Source: Alphaproteobacteria bacterium
Lineage (GTDB): Bacteria > Pseudomonadota > Alphaproteobacteria > Caulobacterales > Caulobacteraceae
Direction of reading: 5' to 3'
Length of the DNA stretch: 64,000 bases
NCBI GenBank assembly: GCA_025359785.1
Contig: JANYET010000015.1
Coordinates: 1-64,000, forward strand
The notes below the pieces were generated by a model. The model was not told where the DNA came from and did not search any database. It saw nothing but the letters and a program-made list of their open reading frames with translations. Numbering within the stretch: position 1 is the stretch's first letter; every line of letters begins with the position of its first letter. A program made the translations under genes and the position numbers. Positions 1 through 11,257 of this stretch are shown piece after piece.

Positions 1-405
1 CTGGGCGAACGCAGCCTCCGCGCCCGTGGCGTCTCCAAGATTGAACAGCTGATCGCCCAGCGCCCGCCAGGCGTCGGCCAGGTCGCGATTGACGCTGGTG
101 GCGCTGCGCAGCGCCTCGACCGCCGATCGCCTCTCGCCTAGATCCGCGAGGGTCAGGCCCAGTTCGTATTGGGTCATCGCGGCGCGGGGATAGGCCTTGG
201 CCAGCGGCGCGAGAACCGACCGCGCACCCTTCGGATCACCCAGCCGCCGGCGCGCGGAGCCCAGGACCAGCAAGGCCCGCGGATCGTTTCGCGCGACCTT
301 CAGAATGGCTTCGGCCTCGGATCGCGCCCGCGCCGGGTCCGAGGCCAGCAAGGCGGCGGCGCGCTCGGCGGCGGCGTTCAGCCAGCTGATTCCCGCGTCA
401 GCCAT
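1..405 (-). CDS. TPR-repeat protein, 3' part cut by window edge; possibly a TPR-sulfotransferase
   Basis: Reverse frame from ATG at 403-405 is open to base 1: MADAGISWLNAAAERAAALLASDPARARSEAEAILKVARNDPRALLVLGSARRRLGDPKGARSVLAPLAKAYPRAAMTQYELGLTLADLGERRSAVEALRSATSVNRDLADAWRALGDQLFNLGDATGAEAAFAQ; TPR helices. Sulfotransferase part not visible. Confidence 0.7.
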   Translation of the reverse strand, partial: MADAGISWLNAAAERAAALLASDPARARSEAEAILKVARNDPRALLVLGSARRRLGDPKGARSVLAPLAKAYPRAAMTQYELGLTLADLGERRSAVEALRSATSVNRDLADAWRALGDQLFNLGDATGAEAAFAQ

Positions 406-491
406 TGGCGCGCTCTTTGGTCATGCGAGGGCTATCTCGGCCGGCCCGTTCAGCGATGCAAGATCGAATGCGGCGCCGTGACAACGGCGAA

Positions 492-521
492 GGGCGGATC
501 GAAGTCGCCTTCGATCCGCCC
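492..521. other. Perfect 13-bp hairpin (GGGCGGATCGAAG-tcgc-CTTCGATCCGCCC) between TBDR and TPR genes
   Basis: Exact inverted repeat in the intergenic gap; no clear U-tract, so possible attenuator or processing hairpin rather than a canonical terminator. Confidence 0.6.
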
Positions 522-546
522 CAGCCCGCTGCGTCAGTGGATGACG

Positions 547-3126
547 CTAGAAGGTGTAGGTGATGCGACCGTAGTAGTAGCCGCCGCCGGTTCCGTAGGG
601 GGAGAAGCCCCAAGGCACGCCAAACACCCGACCGTTCGTGGTGGGTCGGCCGCCGATATTCGGCGCTTTCGGCGGAATTTTGTTCAGCAGGTTGTCCGCC
701 CCGACATCGAGCTTCAGGTTGTCGGTCACCTTGTAGCCGACATCGAGGTCGAAGATTGCGGCAAGCGGGACTTCCTGCGTGTAGAGTTGGCCGTTGGCGA
801 ACAACAGGGTTTGCTGAGATACCTTCCCGTAGATCGACGACCGTAGGTTGGCGCTCCACTTATCCCGGGTCCAGTTGGCCTGCAGGATGGCCTTCTCCTT
901 TGGCACCGAGGTCTCAAGGCTGCTCTTGGCCGTCGCGCCCAGGATCAGCGCGCCCGGCGCCTGCCCATTCGCCCGCGCGGCCGCCGCCTGGGCAGCGTTG
1001 GCGGTGTTTGTCACCTGGGTTGGCAGGGGCGCGACGCGGGTGAAGGTGTTCTCGTTGTAGTTGAAGCCCACGGTCCAGTCGACGTGGCCCAGGTCCCCGA
1101 AGTCAGAGGCGTAGGTGCCCGTGAGCTCCACGCCCTTCGTCTCGGTGTCGGCCGCGTTGGTGAACACCGAAATGCCCGTATAGGACAGCGATGTCGCATT
1201 CGCGAGCGGCGCACCCAGCTTGTTGGCGATGGCCGCAAGAACGCCAGGCGAGGTGATGTCGGAGCCCACGGTGCCAAAGATCGTGTTGGTCGTCAGGATC
1301 CGATCCTTGATCTTGATATAGTAGGCGTCGAGCGTGATCTGGAGGCCTTCCATCGGGTGGGCGACGAAGCCCACGCTGTAGTTGGTCGATTTTTCAGGCT
1401 GCAGCGGCTTGAATCCGGCGAGCGCCGCAGACACCGAATTCGCCGGTAGGGTCAGGGAGGCGGAACCGGGGCTTACGTTGGTGCCGGAATAGAACTCCTC
1501 GGCCAGGGTCGGGGCCCTGAAGCCAGTGCTGACCGTGCCACGGATAGCGAACATCGGATTGAAGTCGTAGCGGCTGGTGAGCTTGCCCACCGTGGACTCA
1601 CCGAAGTCGCTGTAGTGTTCGTAGCGGGCCGCCAGGTCGATGTGCCATCCCTTGATCGGATCGGCCGCGCCGTCGATGTAGAAGCCGTAGTTGGTCCGGG
1701 AGTGCTCGCCGGCGTCGAACGGGGTGTAGCCGTCGAACGACTGCGCGCCGCTGCCGAAGTAGGAAGACGGCTCGCCGGCGCTGATCGAATAGGTCTCGCG
1801 GCGGCTTTCCGCCCCGAAGGCGATGTTCAGCGGCGACGCCATGCCGACGTCGAAGGCCCGGTCGAAATCGGCCGAGATGACCGACTGGGTGCCTTTGAAG
1901 GCGCCGTCGTAGAACAGGCGCTGCGGAACGATCTGGGTCGCGGACTGAGCGGCCAGGATCGGGAAGAGTTCGGCGTTGGCCGTGTTCTTGACGAAGATCT
2001 GGTTCTCGTCGGCGCCGTAGGTCACCGCGAGATCGTAGTTCCAGTCGGCGAGCGTGCCGCGAGCGCCGCCGGTGATCGAATAGTCGGTCTCATGGTCCGC
2101 TTCGCTCGGGTCGAAGCCATTGGGCAGCGGGTAGTAGGTGACGCCCGTCGAGGTCGTGCCCTTGATCAGCGCCGGCACGCGGTAGTTTTCGAAGTGGGAC
2201 GAATGCCGGTCGCCGTAGCTGCCGAAGCCGTACAGCTCGATGGTGTCGGTCAACTTGTACGCGGCGTTGAACGTGCCGTTGTAGATGTTGTACTGGGGCG
2301 CGCCGTTTACACCGTTTTCCCGCGGAAAATTCTTCGCGTTCACAACGTTCCTGTTCACCAGGTTGTTGGCCGGATTGCTTCCGTTGAAGGCCGAGCCGGC
2401 GGCGTTGATGCTGCCGTCGGGGTTCTGGAACCGCCGGTCGCCAATCCCTTCGATCGTTTCTTCGCCGTATCGCTGTTCAAGGGTGACATTGACGAAGCCC
2501 CGGTCGCCAAGGCTGAAGCCCTTGTTCAGGGACCAAGCGCCCCGCTTGCCCTCACCCTTGTAGTTTTGGCCACCCGTGCCCGAAATGAAACCGCCGTCGG
2601 CCTTCGTCTTCAGGATGAGGTTCACAACGCCGGCGATGGCGTCGGTGCCGTACTGAGCCGCCGCGCCGTCGGTCAACACTTCGACGTGGTCGATGGCGCC
2701 AACGGGGATGAAGCTGAGGTCGGTCGTGGCCGAACCGGAGTAGGCCGAGCCGCCGAGGACGGACAGGTTCGACGTGACGTGTCGGCGCTTGCCGTTCACC
2801 AGCACCAGGGTGTCATTGGGGCTGAGGCCGCGCAGGGCCGCCTGAATGCTCAGGGCCGCCAGGTCGCCGCCCGTGTTGTTGATGTTCAGCGACGGAACCG
2901 CCGTCGATAGCGCGCTGGACAGGTCGGTCGAGCCGGTCCTGGCCAACGCCAGCCCGCCGACCACCTGGACCGGCGCGGCGCTGTCCTCGGCCTTGACGCC
3001 GAGCGCCCGCGTGCCGGTGACGATGACCTCGCTTACCTCCGAGGCGGCGGTCGCTTCAGCGAAGGCCGGAGCGGCCAGCGCGGTGGCGAGCGCCAGCATG
3101 CTGGCGCCAGTGAGTAGCTTCTTCAT
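547..3126 (-). CDS. TonB-dependent receptor
   Basis: 859 aa, signal peptide, SEVIVTGTRA TonB-box region, plug ([29 protein letters not shown]), C-terminal aromatic YYYGRITYTF. Confidence 0.95.
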   Translation of the reverse strand: MKKLLTGASMLALATALAAPAFAEATAASEVSEVIVTGTRALGVKAEDSAAPVQVVGGLALARTGSTDLSSALSTAVPSLNINNTGGDLAALSIQAALRGLSPNDTLVLVNGKRRHVTSNLSVLGGSAYSGSATTDLSFIPVGAIDHVEVLTDGAAAQYGTDAIAGVVNLILKTKADGGFISGTGGQNYKGEGKRGAWSLNKGFSLGDRGFVNVTLEQRYGEETIEGIGDRRFQNPDGSINAAGSAFNGSNPANNLVNRNVVNAKNFPRENGVNGAPQYNIYNGTFNAAYKLTDTIELYGFGSYGDRHSSHFENYRVPALIKGTTSTGVTYYPLPNGFDPSEADHETDYSITGGARGTLADWNYDLAVTYGADENQIFVKNTANAELFPILAAQSATQIVPQRLFYDGAFKGTQSVISADFDRAFDVGMASPLNIAFGAESRRETYSISAGEPSSYFGSGAQSFDGYTPFDAGEHSRTNYGFYIDGAADPIKGWHIDLAARYEHYSDFGESTVGKLTSRYDFNPMFAIRGTVSTGFRAPTLAEEFYSGTNVSPGSASLTLPANSVSAALAGFKPLQPEKSTNYSVGFVAHPMEGLQITLDAYYIKIKDRILTTNTIFGTVGSDITSPGVLAAIANKLGAPLANATSLSYTGISVFTNAADTETKGVELTGTYASDFGDLGHVDWTVGFNYNENTFTRVAPLPTQVTNTANAAQAAAARANGQAPGALILGATAKSSLETSVPKEKAILQANWTRDKWSANLRSSIYGKVSQQTLLFANGQLYTQEVPLAAIFDLDVGYKVTDNLKLDVGADNLLNKIPPKAPNIGGRPTTNGRVFGVPWGFSPYGTGGGYYYGRITYTF

Positions 3127-3635
3127 GTCTTAAACCCCCTTTGTTTTTGTCGTCATTTGATATTCGAAAACACTGCCTTGCTTTAGAATTCGCGACATCC
3201 GGCCAATACCGTGCTCAAATCGAATAATAATTCGCACATTATTCAATATACAGCATGTATATTTCAAACGAATACCTACAGCGGCAGCGTCTATCGATTC
3301 CTAGGTACGCTTCTATTCTAAATCCGTGGATACGGACGTGTCGGACCGCCGCCAGTTCTTTTGGCGGCGCTGGATTCTGAAATGTCATGAAAATGATGCA
3401 GTGCACCATGGTTATGCCGGTATTGACTTGGAGCTGACCCAATTGACCAAGGAATGGGCGAAATCAGACCCGCGGCGGGTCGAATAGGCGCGCGGTGGGG
3501 CGCCGGCGAGGCTGGCGCCCACGGGTCAGGCGATCTGAGGCGCCCAAACGTTGATCAACCCTGGGCGCGCTCCTAGGATATCGCACACTGCGGAAGAGCC
3601 ACCGCGCGGCGCCTTGGAGCCTCTGGAATGCCGCG

Positions 3636-5621
3636 ATGAAGCTCAGGGTTCGTTTTCAGCAGCTGCCGATCCTGTTCGACGCCGACAAGCTGGCGCAAGA
3701 GGTCGCCGCCATCCCCGAGAGCGCTTGGCGCCCACACCCTCAGGGCTACCCGGGCAATGACGCCCTGCCGTTGATCACCACCAATGGCGATCCGGACAGC
3801 GACGCGCGCGCCGGCGCCATGGGACCGACCCCGCACCTTCTCGCCTGTCCCTACCTCATGGAGGTGCTCGAAGCCCTGGGCGCGACCTGGGGCCGCTCGC
3901 GACTGATGCGACTCTCAGGTGAGGCCGAAGTCACCCCCCACGTCGACACCGACTACTACTGGCGCGACCACATGCGCGTGCATGTGCCGATCGTCACGCA
4001 GCCGACCGTGCGCTTCTGCTGTGGCGACGAGCAGGTGAACATGGCCGCCGGCGAATGCTGGATCTTCGACACCTGGAGCCTGCACAGCGTTCACAATGAC
4101 GCCTCGCGTTCGCGCATTCATCTGGTCGCCGACACCGTGGGCGGCGACGGTCTGCTGAGCTTGATCGAACAGGGCCGCTCAACAGGCGACGATCGGCCGG
4201 AATGGTCGCCGCGCCTGTCGCCGCCACGCCTTGGTCAATCAGGGGGCGGACCCGTCCCGATCCTGGCTTACGAAAGTCGCAACACGCCGGTGACGATGAC
4301 TCCGTGGGAGTTGCGCGACCACCTGGGTTTCCTGATGAACGAGGTCGCGCCGGGGCAGCCGCTGATCGGCCCCGTCGGACAGGCCCTGAATCGGTTGCGT
4401 GTGAACTGGCACGCTCTGTGGGCGCAACACGGCGACGCCGCTGCCGCCAGGCCGGCCTACGCCACCCTCCTGGAGCGGACGTGGTCGACGTTGCAAACGG
4501 CGGGCGTCGACAGCCTGGTGCTGAAAAATCGGATGCCGCTGGCGAAATGCCTGCGGGCGTTGATCTTCGAACCCGCGCTGGCGGACAGCGGCTCGGCGAT
4601 GGACAGCGACGCCCGCGAAGCCCCCCGTGAAACCTCCGGTGGTCCCAACCGGGCCGCCGCTCCACCACCGGCGCCCGCTATCGTATCCAGTCTGAGCCGC
4701 GATCCGGAGTTCGACCGGCCTGTCTTCATCGTCAGTTCGCCCAGGTCTGGCTCAACGCTGCTCTTTGAAACCCTCTCGAACGCGCCCGGTCTGGCGACGA
4801 TCGGAGGAGAGGCGCACGGACTGATGGAATCCATCCCCCAGCTCAGTCCCGCCGTGCGAGGCTGGGAGTCCAATCGGCTCACCGCCGCGGACGCCGAGCT
4901 TTCGACCGTCGCTCTACTGCGTGAACGGTTCCGCGCGGCGATCCGCTATCGCGACGGCGCGCCGCCGACGCCGGGTCCGGTTCGCATGCTCGAAAAGACG
5001 CCTAAGAACGCGCTGCGCGTGCCGTTCTTGGCCGCCGCCTTTCCCGAGGCGCGGTTCATCTACCTTTACCGCCATCCCCGTCCGACCCTGGCCAGCATGC
5101 TCGAAGCCTGGTCATCGGGCGGGTTTCGAACCTATCCGCAACTCCCTGGATGGACCGGTCTCGCCTGGTCGTTGCTGCTGATCCCCGGCTGGCGGGAGCT
5201 GGCAGGCGCGCCGCTGGAGCGCATCGTCGCCCAGCAGTGGAGCGCCACAACCCGCATTCTGTTGGACGATTTGGCGGCATTGCCGAAGGATCGCTGGCTG
5301 GCCTTGCGCTATGAGTCCTTCATCGCGTCCCCTCAGACTGCCATCTCGCGTCTGTGCGAGGGGCTGGATCTGGCCTGGGATCGTCAGCTTGGCGCCAGCC
5401 TGCCGCTCGCCCGACATACGCTGACGAGGCCGAGCGCTGACAAATGGCGCGCTCACGCAGAGGTGATCGAAACGGTGTTTCCGCTCGTGGAGCGAGAAAA
5501 CGATCGCGCCTTGGCGCTTTTGGGTGAAAGCGACAGGTCTTTGGGCCTTGGGACTCAACCCAACGGTTCCCCCACGCGCACGCTGTCGTCTTCGACGATT
5601 TTGGCGCCCGACCCCACCTGA
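3636..5621 (+). CDS. Fusion: aspartyl/asparaginyl beta-hydroxylase domain + sulfotransferase domain
   Basis: N-terminus TPHVDTDYYWRDHMRVHVPI...CWIFDTWSLHSVHND (Asp/Asn hydroxylase style); C-terminal half FIVSSPRSGSTLLFETL (5'-PAPS loop) and FIYLYRHPRPTLASMLEAW (3'-phosphate motif). Confidence 0.85.
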   Translation: MKLRVRFQQLPILFDADKLAQEVAAIPESAWRPHPQGYPGNDALPLITTNGDPDSDARAGAMGPTPHLLACPYLMEVLEALGATWGRSRLMRLSGEAEVTPHVDTDYYWRDHMRVHVPIVTQPTVRFCCGDEQVNMAAGECWIFDTWSLHSVHNDASRSRIHLVADTVGGDGLLSLIEQGRSTGDDRPEWSPRLSPPRLGQSGGGPVPILAYESRNTPVTMTPWELRDHLGFLMNEVAPGQPLIGPVGQALNRLRVNWHALWAQHGDAAAARPAYATLLERTWSTLQTAGVDSLVLKNRMPLAKCLRALIFEPALADSGSAMDSDAREAPRETSGGPNRAAAPPPAPAIVSSLSRDPEFDRPVFIVSSPRSGSTLLFETLSNAPGLATIGGEAHGLMESIPQLSPAVRGWESNRLTAADAELSTVALLRERFRAAIRYRDGAPPTPGPVRMLEKTPKNALRVPFLAAAFPEARFIYLYRHPRPTLASMLEAWSSGGFRTYPQLPGWTGLAWSLLLIPGWRELAGAPLERIVAQQWSATTRILLDDLAALPKDRWLALRYESFIASPQTAISRLCEGLDLAWDRQLGASLPLARHTLTRPSADKWRAHAEVIETVFPLVERENDRALALLGESDRSLGLGTQPNGSPTRTLSSSTILAPDPT

Positions 5622-5831: not shown

Positions 5832-6407
5832 ATGAAATTGCAACTGTTGGCTTCCGCCTTCGCGGCGCTGGCTTTGGGCGTTGCGGCGACCCCCGCCGCG
5901 GCCGGTCTCCTCGGGTCTACCGTTGACGTGTCCGCGCGCTATCCCAACGACGCCACGGTCTACAGCGATCCGGGCAACGCCGTGGTCACGAACGGCATTG
6001 AGTACGCCTCGGGATCCTACGCGGCATACAACCAGTCCTGGCAGGTTGATGTTCAGGACAACCAGATCTCCATCACCGACGCGCTCGGAACCGGGCTGAG
6101 CTTCGGAACGGCGACCTTCAACGGCTTCGTACTCAATGTCATTTCCGGTCCGCAAATCCTGTCGGCCAGCATCAACAACGGCAGCACGATCGTGCCGGTT
6201 GGGTTGAGCATTTCGAACGGCTCCCTGTTCATAAATTTTAGTGGTGTGAGTCAGCAGCCGTTCGGCTCGGCGATCATCGATTTCACCACCGGGGACAACG
6301 GGGGCGGCGTGCCGGAGCCGGCGACCGGGGCGATGATGCTGCTGGGCTTCGGCGGCATGGGTGCGGCGCTGCGCCGGACCCGCAAGGCCGTCGCGACGGC
6401 CGGCTGA
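5832..6407 (+). CDS. PEP-CTERM sorting domain protein
   Basis: Start MKLQLLASAFAALALGVAATPAAAG; C-terminus GGVPEPATGAMMLLGFGGMGAALRRTRK. The ORF track start (5748) is likely too long. Confidence 0.85.
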   Translation: MKLQLLASAFAALALGVAATPAAAGLLGSTVDVSARYPNDATVYSDPGNAVVTNGIEYASGSYAAYNQSWQVDVQDNQISITDALGTGLSFGTATFNGFVLNVISGPQILSASINNGSTIVPVGLSISNGSLFINFSGVSQQPFGSAIIDFTTGDNGGGVPEPATGAMMLLGFGGMGAALRRTRKAVATAG

Positions 6408-6700: not shown

Positions 6701-7915
6701 ATGAGCGAAGCCGAGACCGAAGCCCACACCCCCCTGATGGGCCGCCGCTCCTTTCTCTGGGCCACGGCGATGGCCACCGCCCTGCCGATCATGGGCGAGG
6801 CCGAACTGGCCCACGCCAAGCTGGCGTCGCAGATGATGGGCGTCCTGCCGCCGGACGCGGTGATCATCAACGCCAACGAAAACCCGCTCGGCCCCTGCAA
6901 GGCGGCCTGCGAGGCGATCACTAAGATCCTGCCCCTGGGCGGCCGCTACGACCGGATGGGCGAGCTCGGCGCGCTGACCGATGAATACGCCGCGATGCAC
7001 GGCCTGAAGCCCGAGAACATCGCCTTCTACGCCGGCTCCTCGGAGCCGCTGCACTACACCACGCTCGCCTTCACCTCGCCGACCAAGAGCCTGGTGATGG
7101 CCGACCCGTCCTATGAGTCGGCCAACATGGCGGCCCAGATCTCCAAGGCCAAGGTCATCAAGGTGCCGCTCACCGCGACCTACTCGCACGACGTCAAGAA
7201 GATGGTCGCCGCCGATCCGAACGCCGGTCTGATCTATCTGGTGAACCCGAACAACCCGACCGGCACCATCACGCCGCGCGAGGAGATCCTCTGGGCGCTG
7301 GAAAACAAGCCCAAGGGTTCGATCCTGCTGGTCGACGAAGCCTACATCCACCTCTCCGACGAGCACGACGTGCTGGACCAGGTGGCGGCGGGCAAGGACA
7401 TCGTGGTCCTGCGCACCTTCTCCAAGATCTACGGCATGGCCGGCATCCGTTGCGGCGTCGCCATCGCCCGCCCGGACCTGCTGGAAAAGCTGACGCCCTA
7501 CTATCAGAACGCCATGCCGGTGACGGCCCTGGTCGCCGCCCGCGCCTCGCTGGCCGACAAGGACCTGATCCCGACCCGCAAGAAGTGGATCGCCGACAGC
7601 CGCAATGAAACGCTGAGCTTCCTCAAGGCCAATGGCTACAAGCCCGTCGGGACCTCGGTCTCCAACTGCTTCATGATCGACACCGGCCGCCCGGCCCACA
7701 AGGTCATCGCCGCCCTGCAGAAGGAAAAGGTCTACATCGGCCGCATCTGGCCGGTCTGGCCGAACGCGGTGCGCGTGTCCGTGGGCTCGCCCGACGACAT
7801 GGCCAAGTTCCGCGCCGCCTTCAAGAAGGTGATGGACGCCCCGGTGTCGACCGCGTCGAACACGCCCAAGGACCTGCCCTACACCTCGACCGGCGGTAAG
7901 AAGTTCCTGTCGTAG
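6701..7915 (+). CDS. PLP-dependent aminotransferase, HisC-like, with twin-arginine-like signal
   Basis: GRRSFLWATAMATALP leader; NANENPLGP, NPNNPTGT, LVDEAY, RTFSKIYGMAGIRCG aminotransferase motifs. Confidence 0.88.
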   Translation: MSEAETEAHTPLMGRRSFLWATAMATALPIMGEAELAHAKLASQMMGVLPPDAVIINANENPLGPCKAACEAITKILPLGGRYDRMGELGALTDEYAAMHGLKPENIAFYAGSSEPLHYTTLAFTSPTKSLVMADPSYESANMAAQISKAKVIKVPLTATYSHDVKKMVAADPNAGLIYLVNPNNPTGTITPREEILWALENKPKGSILLVDEAYIHLSDEHDVLDQVAAGKDIVVLRTFSKIYGMAGIRCGVAIARPDLLEKLTPYYQNAMPVTALVAARASLADKDLIPTRKKWIADSRNETLSFLKANGYKPVGTSVSNCFMIDTGRPAHKVIAALQKEKVYIGRIWPVWPNAVRVSVGSPDDMAKFRAAFKKVMDAPVSTASNTPKDLPYTSTGGKKFLS

Positions 7916-8003: not shown

Positions 8004-9017
8004 CTAAGACGCCGGCCCGAACCCGGTTTCCTTAGCGATCACCGCGCGGGCTTCGGTGGTCGCTGCCGCCGTGCTCGTCTTGCCCTCGGCGATATCGTCG
8101 GCCAGGCCCATCAGGCGCGGCCCGGTCATCGACCCGTTCGAGGCCTCTTCGCGGACGCTCATCCCGCCCTTGGCGCGCTCGGTCTCGGCCCAGGCCATCC
8201 GAACCGCCGCCCAATAGTCCTTGGTCTTGGCCCAATAGTCGTCCGCCGCCTGCACCTGCGTCAGGCCGGCGGTGCGAGTGTAACTGTTCAGCACGATTTC
8301 ATGGGCGAAGGTGACGGGCTTGCCGTCAACCAGGCCGATCTTGGCGTTGTCCTGCTCATGCACCCAGCCGGCCGGCGTCAGGACATGGCGGTTCTGGCCC
8401 ACGTACCAGCTGTAGGGCGGATGGCGGGTGGCGTCGCGCCGCGCCAGCGGCCGCAGCGTCTCGTTGCTGACCCAGCGGGTCGCGCCATTGTCATAGGCCC
8501 AGCGCCCGACCCCGCCATAGCGGGGTGAGTCGTCGGTCTGCCAGACGGTCTGAGACCAGGCGCCCTTGCGCTCCGCCGCCGACACCGGCGCCGTCACCCA
8601 GCGGCCGGCGCTCTTGTAGCTCAGCACCGTCTTCGGCTGGTAGGTCCAGTCCTGGCGCCAGTGCTTGACCACCACCGTCTTGCCCTCATCCTGGACCACC
8701 AGCAGGTGCTGCAGGCCGATGAAATCGCCCCGGTCCTCCACGACTCGAACGGCCTCGACGCCGCCCGCGACCTTCGGCTCGAACAGCTTGTATCCAGGCG
8801 TCATGGCCACGGTCTCGCGCATGTCGAAGCGGACCTTGAAGTCTCCCGCCATCCCCAGAATGGCGTCGTGATCCCGCTTCATCGCGGCCTCGGCCGGCGC
8901 GGCGAAGGCTGGGGCGGCGAAGGCTGGGGCGGCGAAGGCGGGGGCGGTGAAGGCGGGCGCGGCGGCGCTCAGGGCGCCCGCGGCCAGGAGAGCGAGACAG
9001 AGGCGGCGCGTGGTCAT
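8004..9017 (-). CDS. DUF6607-like exported protein
   Basis: Start MTTRRLCLALLAAGALSAAAP; contains VVKHWRQDWTYQPKTVLSYKSAGRWV; lies 23 bp downstream of the heme-type TBDR. Confidence 0.75.
   Translation of the reverse strand: MTTRRLCLALLAAGALSAAAPAFTAPAFAAPAFAAPAFAAPAEAAMKRDHDAILGMAGDFKVRFDMRETVAMTPGYKLFEPKVAGGVEAVRVVEDRGDFIGLQHLLVVQDEGKTVVVKHWRQDWTYQPKTVLSYKSAGRWVTAPVSAAERKGAWSQTVWQTDDSPRYGGVGRWAYDNGATRWVSNETLRPLARRDATRHPPYSWYVGQNRHVLTPAGWVHEQDNAKIGLVDGKPVTFAHEIVLNSYTRTAGLTQVQAADDYWAKTKDYWAAVRMAWAETERAKGGMSVREEASNGSMTGPRLMGLADDIAEGKTSTAAATTEARAVIAKETGFGPAS
8896..8955. repeat. 15-bp tandem repeat, about 4 units, encoding (APAFA)n in the signal peptide region
   Basis: GGCGCGGCGAAGGCT / GGGGCGGCGAAGGCT / GGGGCGGCGAAGGCG / GGGGCGGTGAAGGCG. 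Confidence 0.85.
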
Positions 9018-9040
9018 GTGTTGGGTCCTGAAGCGGAGGA

Positions 9041-11257
9041 TCAGAAGGCGTAGGCGAGAGACACCGAGGCGTTGCGCCCCGGCTGCGTATAGGCGTCGCG
9101 GCTGCCGGCCGAGGCCGTCAGGCCGCGAACGTCGTTCCACCACCAGTACTTCTGGTCGCCGAGGTTGAACACGCCGGCCCGGGCCGTGATCTGGTCGGTG
9201 ACCCGCCAGTGGGCGGTCACGTCGAGGGTGGTGAACGGGTGCAGCGTAAAGCAGGCGCCCGTACAGGCCGCGGTGGTGACCCGGCTCGCCGCCTTGCCAT
9301 CGGAGTGCGTGGCCGTGACCTCGCCGCCCCAGCGGTCGCCATCGGCGCGATAGCTGACGCCGGCCACGACCTTCACTGGATCGATGCTGTCCAGCGGCGA
9401 CGTCACACCCGCCGTCGAGGTCGTCCAGCCGTGCGCGTAGGAGGCCGCCACGAACCCGCCGAAGCCATTCTTCAATGCCAGCCGGCCCTGCGCCTCCAAC
9501 CCCTGAATCTTGACCCGGCCCAGGTTCACGAACTGGAAGACGCCGGGATTGGTCGGGCTGAACGCGCCCGAGATCAGCGCCTGGTCGATGAAGTCGCGGT
9601 ACTCGCCGGCAAAGGCCGTCACCCCGGCCGACCAGACCGTCGAGGTCCAGCGCGCACCGCCCTCCACCGTCTGGCTGGTCTCGGGCCGCAGCCCCGGATT
9701 GGGGATCGAGCGGTAGTTCTGGATAGGGTTGCTGAAGGCGTTGTTCACCTGGCTGGGCGCGGGCGCCTTGAAGCCCTCCGCGGCGTTCAGGAACAGGTTC
9801 AGCGTCGGGGTGACCTTCAGCACCGCGCCGAACTTCGGCGAGACCCGCCCACCGCTCGACGCTGCCGGGACCAGCCCGACCACCAGGGCGTCGGTGTGCG
9901 GGTTCAGGTCATAGTAGTCGTAGCGCAGCGCCGGGTAGAGCGTCAGCCGCCCATCCAGGAGTGCGATCTCGTCCTGCGCGAAGACGCCCACCAGAGTGTA
10001 GTCGGTGTTGGGGAAGGCCCGCGTCGGGAAGGTCTCGCCCGCCGGCGGCACGGTCCCGTCGCGCAACCCCGTCTGGCGGGTCCGCGAAAGGTCGCCGCCA
10101 TAGATCAACCGGTTAGCGACACCGCCTGCGACGAAGCGGCTCTCCAGCTCCAGCGAGGCCCCGATCACCCGGTTGTCGAAGCTGTTGCGCCGCGTGCGGT
10201 CGGCGGCGGTGTTGCGGTCTTCGGCGGTGAACTGCTCGGTCGTGCTGGCCTGGCCATAGACCAGGGCCGTCAGCTTGGAGACCGGTCCGCTTGCGGGCTC
10301 ATAGCGGTAGTCGACGCTCACCCGGTCGCGCTTCGTGGTGTCCGCCGCCGTCAGACCCAGCACGCTGGTCGCGCCCAGCGGCGGCTTTGCGATGCCGCTC
10401 AGCACGCTGGTATCGACGTGGCGGTCGAAGTGCTCGCCGGTCAGCCGCAGGCGCTGGCCCTCGGCCGGCTCGAGCACCAGCTTGCCCAGCACCGAGTTGG
10501 ACTGGATGTCCTGCGGATTGGCGGTCGTGCGGTCGGTGTTGGCCGCATCGTTCGACCCGCGGGTCTCCTGCTCATGGCCGTCGCGCCGCGTGTAGGCCAG
10601 CAGGCCCGAGACCGCGCCCTGACGCCAGGCGCTCAGCACCGTGCCCACCGCGCTGTCGTCCGCCGAAGCATAGCCCGCCCGCGCCAGGCCGCCGAAGGTC
10701 TGGCCGGCCTTCAGCACGTCGCCGGGGTCCTTGGTGGTGAAGCTGACCGCACCCGCCACGCCATCGCTGCCGTAGAGCGCCGAGGCTGGCCCCCGCAGGA
10801 TCTCCACCGACTTCAGCACCTCGAGGTCCTGGTAGTCGCCGCGGCCCACGGACTGGGCGCCGAAGCTGAAGGCGTCCGGCGCGCGGATGCCGTCCTCCTG
10901 GATCAGCACCCGGTTGCCTTCCAGGCCCCGGATATTGAACCCGGACTCGCCGTCGCGGCCCGTCGTCCCCTGCGCCGCGCCGAACCGCGCCGGGCTGGAG
11001 CGGACGCTGACGCCGGGCTCGTAGCGGACGATGTCCTTGATGTCGGCGGCGAGCTGGTCGGCGATCTGTTCGGCGCCGATCACGCTCACCGTCGCCGGGA
11101 CTTCGCTGGCCGGCCTCGCGGTGCGCGTCCCGATCACCGTCACCGGATCGACCGCCGGGCCCTCCGCGGTGGCCGCGGCCGCCTCGCCAAACGCCGACCC
11201 CAGCGCCAGCATCGAGACAAAACCGAACAGTCCGACGCGCATGCAAAACCCTCTCAA
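9041..11257 (-). CDS. TonB-dependent receptor of hemoglobin/transferrin/lactoferrin type
   Basis: VDPVTVIGTRTARP box, plug FNIRGLEGNRVLIQEDGIRAPDAFSFGAQSVGRGDYQDLEVLKSVEILRGPASALYGSDGVAGAVSFTTKDP; start may be the internal ATG (MRVGLFG). Confidence 0.9.
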   Translation of the reverse strand: MRGFCMRVGLFGFVSMLALGSAFGEAAAATAEGPAVDPVTVIGTRTARPASEVPATVSVIGAEQIADQLAADIKDIVRYEPGVSVRSSPARFGAAQGTTGRDGESGFNIRGLEGNRVLIQEDGIRAPDAFSFGAQSVGRGDYQDLEVLKSVEILRGPASALYGSDGVAGAVSFTTKDPGDVLKAGQTFGGLARAGYASADDSAVGTVLSAWRQGAVSGLLAYTRRDGHEQETRGSNDAANTDRTTANPQDIQSNSVLGKLVLEPAEGQRLRLTGEHFDRHVDTSVLSGIAKPPLGATSVLGLTAADTTKRDRVSVDYRYEPASGPVSKLTALVYGQASTTEQFTAEDRNTAADRTRRNSFDNRVIGASLELESRFVAGGVANRLIYGGDLSRTRQTGLRDGTVPPAGETFPTRAFPNTDYTLVGVFAQDEIALLDGRLTLYPALRYDYYDLNPHTDALVVGLVPAASSGGRVSPKFGAVLKVTPTLNLFLNAAEGFKAPAPSQVNNAFSNPIQNYRSIPNPGLRPETSQTVEGGARWTSTVWSAGVTAFAGEYRDFIDQALISGAFSPTNPGVFQFVNLGRVKIQGLEAQGRLALKNGFGGFVAASYAHGWTTSTAGVTSPLDSIDPVKVVAGVSYRADGDRWGGEVTATHSDGKAASRVTTAACTGACFTLHPFTTLDVTAHWRVTDQITARAGVFNLGDQKYWWWNDVRGLTASAGSRDAYTQPGRNASVSLAYAF

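Follow-up and report, generated by a model that had tools for sequence, protein, structure and literature searches.

In the Caulobacterales, genes for sulfotransferases that carry N-terminal TPRs (TPR-STs) are paired with genes for TonB receptors (TBDRs). A same-strand TBDR, called with an HMM built from five seeds, immediately adjoined 30 of the 35 TPR-STs in our sample (40 places hand-picked across genera from a ranked list, five of them without a usable TPR-ST call); many of the loci, being related, do not count as independent. The whole home genome (4.2 Mb) has 42 TBDRs, and with an assumed ~4,000 genes we estimate that chance alone would put a TBDR next to a gene in ~2% of cases. TPR-ST was present in 124 of 199 Caulobacterales genomes, and no description of TPR-ST/TBDR pairs, or of the locus arrangement reported here, was found in the open-access PMC literature. 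The robust, general link is that of TPR-ST with TBDR; it was invisible to the preliminary description of the locus studied here because the TPR gene there is cut. The hydroxylase-sulfotransferase fusion (HYD-ST) found at this locus is usually an orphan in more distant relatives. We tentatively read the locus as a receptor-plus-modifier module, in which the TBDR would be sulfated in the cytosol before export and HYD-ST would be an accessory.

The window, the whole stretch of DNA analyzed, is the first 64 kb of one contig (C4:1-64000) of a 4.2-Mb assembly in 75 contigs, and its position 1 is the end of that contig. Among relatives of the fusion that bear a name, the nearest come from Caulobacter and uncultured Caulobacteraceae, and on this ground we take the source to be a member of the Caulobacteraceae. 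Genes were called with a codon-usage caller made for this study, not with a standard annotator. The TPR gene, the TBDR and the fusion were all recovered where the preliminary description had placed them and in the divergent layout it had reported, the first two on the minus strand and the fusion on the plus strand. TPR-ST is represented by its N-terminal 135 codons (positions 1 to 405, minus strand; Pfam TPR_14/TPR_16), with the sulfotransferase domain beyond the contig end. The TBDR (547 to 3126, minus strand; 859 amino acids) has a plug (Pfam, 8.6e-18), a barrel (Pfam, 2.3e-40) and, as N-terminal export signal, a hydrophobic N-terminus that appears to be a signal peptide. HYD-ST (3636 to 5621, plus strand; 661 amino acids) consists of a 2OG-Fe(II) hydroxylase fused to a sulfotransferase and has no apparent signal peptide. 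Just 3' of HYD-ST, 5832-6407(+) encodes a PEP-CTERM (PEPxxWA) protein with a signal peptide, which was not at the same place in the closest relative, L040. Further on are a PtaA-like aminotransferase with a Tat-type N-terminus, at 6701-7915(+), and, at 8004-11257(-), a further pairing of a receptor with an unknown, in which a DUF6607 protein lies immediately downstream of a TBDR unrelated to the first.

Whether the TPR protein bears a sulfotransferase domain had been left as a point to check, and full-length orthologues show that it does. The 135-residue window fragment was 51-60% identical to the N-termini of the TPR-STs in L041-L044 and L046, proteins of 657-690 amino acids in which the TPRs are followed by a sulfotransferase domain (in the L041 protein, PF13469 at residues 419-609, E 2.1e-46). 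The PAPS loop (P426, R427, G429, S430, T431) and E448 were invariant in 32 TPR-STs, and by its motif position E448 is the likely counterpart of the TPST2 catalytic Glu. The window gene being cut, the L041 orthologue was used for an AF2 model (pLDDT 91.4, pTM 0.87), in which a TPR superhelix lies N-terminal to the catalytic domain. Its best TPR match was the OGT TPR superhelix (1w3b), and it also matched a tick TPST. TPR-ST thus joins a TPR superhelix resembling that of OGT to a TPST-like catalytic domain, the build expected of an enzyme that acts on extended polypeptides, and this combination favors cytosolic O-sulfation of the TBDR precursor. In both OGT and TPR-ST the TPR superhelix comes first and the catalytic domain, which transfers a group, comes after it; this domain is a glycosyltransferase in OGT and a sulfotransferase in TPR-ST. 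The sulfotransferase domains of both TPR-ST and HYD-ST match TPST1/TPST2 (PDB 3ap3, 5wri, 8w5z) by sequence profile or fold, and share with them the PAPS loop and a Glu in a G-x-E-like motif. Unlike the animal TPSTs, they are bacterial, have TPRs or an oxygenase as fusion partner, and show no signal peptide or membrane anchor; their activity on protein Tyr is predicted from the likeness.

Another contig of the home assembly, C10 (G000:C10:1-1707, the same as L120:1-1707), starts partway through a TPR-ST (568 amino acids, 62% identical to that of L041) that belongs to the subfamily of the window TPR gene, and was considered as the missing half of that gene. Subfamily and position fit, but its first 117 bp overlap window positions 1-117 at only 83% DNA identity, and we did not accept the join; the two may be variants of one gene from co-binned strains, or else paralogues. 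Contig C37 of the home genome (L123:2799-9314) carries a TBDR and two tandem TPR-STs on one strand, this TBDR belonging to another cluster than the window TBDR.

The genes around TPR-ST/TBDR pairs differed from locus to locus. Thirty-nine pairs were spread over four clusters of TBDRs and occurred in both gene orders. Some were accompanied by BCCT carriers and MarR regulators, others by an amino acid/polyamine antiporter and an Xaa-Pro dipeptidase, by glutamine-synthetase-like, peptidase C26 and class-III aminotransferase genes, or by kynureninase, an ornithine-cyclodeaminase-like protein (OCD) and a RidA-like protein. Since the accompanying genes vary, the constant partner of TPR-ST is the receptor and not any one pathway, and a single biosynthetic product for the pairs is unlikely. 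Near L044/L046, OCD and Ser/Thr dehydratase genes brought the beta-hydroxyaspartate cycle into consideration, and it was rejected as they scored far below the BhcB/BhcD cut-offs. Apparently secreted RidA-like proteins were seen beside the TBDR of two loci that also hold HYD-ST (L041:10573-11067, L046:16639-17079).

The preliminary description had suggested that the receptor, its ligand or an exported peptide is modified. If the enzymes made an exported, sulfated and hydroxylated peptide or siderophore-like ligand, the TBDR would re-import it, as with the methanobactins, whose operons place the TBDR MbnT beside the sulfotransferase MbnS (PMC3621798). An oxygenase and a sulfotransferase are indeed tailoring-type activities, and RaxST of Xanthomonas, a bacterial sulfotransferase acting on tyrosine of a secreted peptide, is encoded with a peptide secretion system (PMC4216712), whereas here a TBDR is the partner and the search for a peptide was negative. 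We nevertheless regard such a re-imported ligand as quite unlikely. Methanobactin operons all contain the short precursor MbnA together with MbnB, and MbnS belongs to PF00685, whereas the sulfotransferase domains here belong to PF13469. Comparison of the window with L040 yielded no convincing conserved precursor ORF in the divergent interval between TBDR and HYD-ST (3127 to 3635) and no short precursor beside the modifying genes; the interval was 75% identical in nucleotides, and its small ORFs matched in several frames that compete with one another, the pattern that non-coding DNA would give. MbnB/MbnC were not among the annotated window genes (part of the ORFs scanned, on a cut contig), and no dedicated exporter or peptidase was noted among the annotated genes near the three. 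The neighbors of the pairs are, moreover, mostly uptake and catabolism genes that differ by locus. The proposal of a modified exported peptide is thus weakened, since no precursor was found. Indirect support for the receptor as target comes from the spread of the pairs over TBDR clusters and from the tyrosine motif described below.

The joining of hydroxylase and sulfotransferase in a single polypeptide was borne out by an uninterrupted ORF that is kept in >70 other loci. Pfam places Asp_Arg_Hydrox (PF05118) at residues 69-167 (E 1.4e-15) and Sulfotransfer_3 (PF13469) at residues 362-582 (E 1.2e-27), and the AlphaFold model shows two confident domains connected by a disordered linker (333-352). 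The hydroxylase domain with its helical extension (residues 1-330; 3636 to 4625, plus strand) contains the iron triad H102-x-D104...H150 and the 2OG-binding R160. The sulfotransferase domain (residues 355-635; 4698 to 5540, plus strand) contains the PAPS loop PRSGSTLL, which is the 5'-phosphosulfate loop of PF13469 enzymes, E392 in GGEAH, K454, and the 3'-phosphate-binding R479 and S487. All four residues of the hydroxylase site, and P369, R370, G372, S373, E392, K454, R479 and S487 of the sulfotransferase, were invariant in an alignment of 59 HYD-STs, the others being 42-85% identical to the window copy. E392 is, judging from its motif position, the probable equivalent of the TPST2 catalytic Glu. 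No N-terminal hydrophobic stretch was apparent in either HYD-ST or TPR-ST; the window TBDR has one. PAPS and 2-oxoglutarate are cytosolic cofactors, and HYD-ST and TPR-ST should therefore act in the cytosol.

The description of the hydroxylase as Asp/Asn beta-hydroxylase-like agrees with the PF05118 family match, but the sequence profile is nearer to L-proline cis-4-hydroxylase than to AspH; for HYD-ST the term names a family and should not be taken to assign a substrate, and Asp/Asn of a protein is only a putative substrate residue. The hydroxylase half resembles L-proline cis-4-hydroxylase (4p7w), proline 3-hydroxylase (1e5r) and AspH, and also a nucleoside-antibiotic hydroxylase (7v4f, TMt 0.76), its closest solved relatives being the free-proline hydroxylases. 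Fold, HxD...H metal site and 2OG-binding Arg are common to HYD-ST and the oxygenases of the AspH and L-proline cis-4-hydroxylase types, from which HYD-ST differs in its fusion to a sulfotransferase and in keeping the HxD carboxylate, which human AspH lacks. The sulfotransferase half resembles human TPST1/TPST2 and the polyketide sulfotransferase CurM. These likenesses bear on the possibility that TPR-ST and HYD-ST modify small molecules, lipids or glycans, such as amines or amino acids taken up by the cell, or lipids or polysaccharides at its surface. The free-proline hydroxylases are consistent with it, as is PF05118 also including the lipid A hydroxylase LpxO; the presence of the small-molecule sulfotransferase CurM among PF13469-like enzymes counts against a protein substrate, and amine and amino-acid transport genes lie nearby. 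The TPST-like fold of TPR-ST with its OGT-like, peptide-binding superhelix argues the other way, as does the constancy of TPR-ST and TBDR while the neighboring pathways vary, and we consider a small-molecule, lipid or glycan substrate rather unlikely.

Association of all three genes was local. TPR-ST and TBDR both lay within 5 kb of the fusion in 6 of the 7 nearest HYD-ST loci, in several arrangements, and near it in 12 of 78 gene-called loci overall, many of them on short contigs. The expected co-occurrence of the three genes thus held among close relatives and failed more widely, as the fusion is an orphan in most genomes. No TPR-ST lay nearby in 28 Xanthomonadales HYD-ST loci. In the related genus g2, HYD-ST is found amid housekeeping genes, and 5 of 6 sampled fusion-bearing genomes had no TPR-ST gene at E<=1e-60; at L285:8274-8441 and similar g2 loci, a ribosomal protein L33-like gene is beside HYD-ST, with TPR-ST/TBDR not within reach. 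The fusion or one of its halves was found in 37 of 299 genomes of the order and in 0 of 11 other listed genomes of the window's genus. A Klebsiella pneumoniae MAG, as its record is titled, also has an HYD-ST gene (L117) and is probably mis-binned or mislabelled.

HYD-ST could accordingly be mobile or independent, lying beside a functional TPR-ST/TBDR pair by chance in one Caulobacteraceae clade. The orphan copies in Xanthomonadales and g2 favor this, and so do the variable gene order of the trio and the finding that trio-linked TBDR orthologues form one clade (support 90/93). Between loci whose proteins are roughly 55-75% identical, however, the trio survives, with its genes arranged in several ways. 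L054/L059/L069, L055, L079 and L111 also have trio-like sets. HYD-ST or a stand-alone HYD also adjoins TPR-ST in other lineages, in the order HYD-TPRST-HYD in L150, L153, L297 and L301 and HYD-ST-TPRST in L289, L290 and L292-L294. We judge it unlikely that HYD-ST is such a mobile or independent enzyme. In Rhodanobacter/Dyella loci (L054, L059, L069, L076), a TBDR, several TPR-STs (five in this expanded version of the locus), HYD-ST and a TPR-AspH-like protein are stacked together; this last protein, in the Rhodanobacter version of the locus (L054:17784-19106), has the same domain order as mammalian AspH. A Rhodanobacteraceae MAG (L119:1-14816) has a dense hydroxylase/sulfotransferase cluster, in which TPR-STs are interleaved with PF13640 2OG oxygenases, HYD-ST and stand-alone HYD.

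Receptors linked to TPR-ST were compared with unlinked relatives for candidate tyrosine sites. In cluster 0, the largest TBDR family, D-Y-[STA]-x-Y occurred at one aligned site in 48 of 48 linked TBDRs (TPR-ST adjoining, but divergent in L218 and one gene away in L220; 8 of the 48 entered through a further, class-wide draw made once the motif was known) and in 0 of the 10 nearest relatives without an adjacent TPR-ST. The closest unlinked relative, L219, has D-N-T-A-Y at the site, and the motif was found nowhere in 30 home-genome TBDRs. By alignment it sits just after an outward beta strand, where we take an extracellular loop to begin. The linked cluster-0 TBDRs form one clade, so motif and linkage could reflect one historical event, and their association is suggestive only as a sign of receptor modification.

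The window TBDR and its family do not contain D-Y-[STA]-x-Y. In this family, position 467 was Tyr in 8 of 8 linked receptors, and Phe in 26 and Tyr in 5 of 31 others, this being one of several discriminating columns, picked post hoc without multiple-testing correction. Tyr467, in the loop SFDGYTP (codon at 1726 to 1728, minus strand), is accordingly a weak candidate modification site. Two other signals were set aside. Tyr349 (ETDYS) is not specific to linked receptors, since Tyr occupies this position in 77% of the unlinked relatives as well, and an excess of acid-flanked Tyr in linked over unlinked TBDRs (7.2 vs 2.6 per 1000 residues) comes mostly from a single clade. A dedicated receptor Tyr-sulfation, in which TPR-ST would recognize its partner TBDR in the cytosol and act on the acidic Tyr pair, and the Caulobacteraceae HYD-ST would add a second, two-step modification, is possible and in our view doubtful.

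In the receptor-plus-modifier module that we favor, TPR-ST would be a cytosolic PAPS-dependent protein sulfotransferase whose OGT-like superhelix would grip a polypeptide in extended form, in the simplest case the neighboring TBDR as a precursor that has yet to fold. The TPST-like domain would then sulfate Tyr in segments destined for extracellular loops, and the TBDR, once exported and folded, would carry a permanent negative charge close to the face that binds its ligand. HYD-ST may assist, its oxygenase domain hydroxylating a residue and its sulfotransferase domain sulfating that or a nearby hydroxyl. The frequent orphan HYD-STs and a window TBDR lacking the motif count against this model, and no sulfated outer-membrane protein was reported in the open-access PMC literature searched.

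To our knowledge, bacterial tyrosine sulfation is known mainly from the Xanthomonas Rax system. Caulobacterales and sphingomonads possess TBDRs by the dozen, and little is understood of how these select their ligands. The TPR-ST/TBDR pairing is widespread in cultivable bacteria, and a conserved sulfotransferase partner would offer a new handle on how these receptors are tuned.
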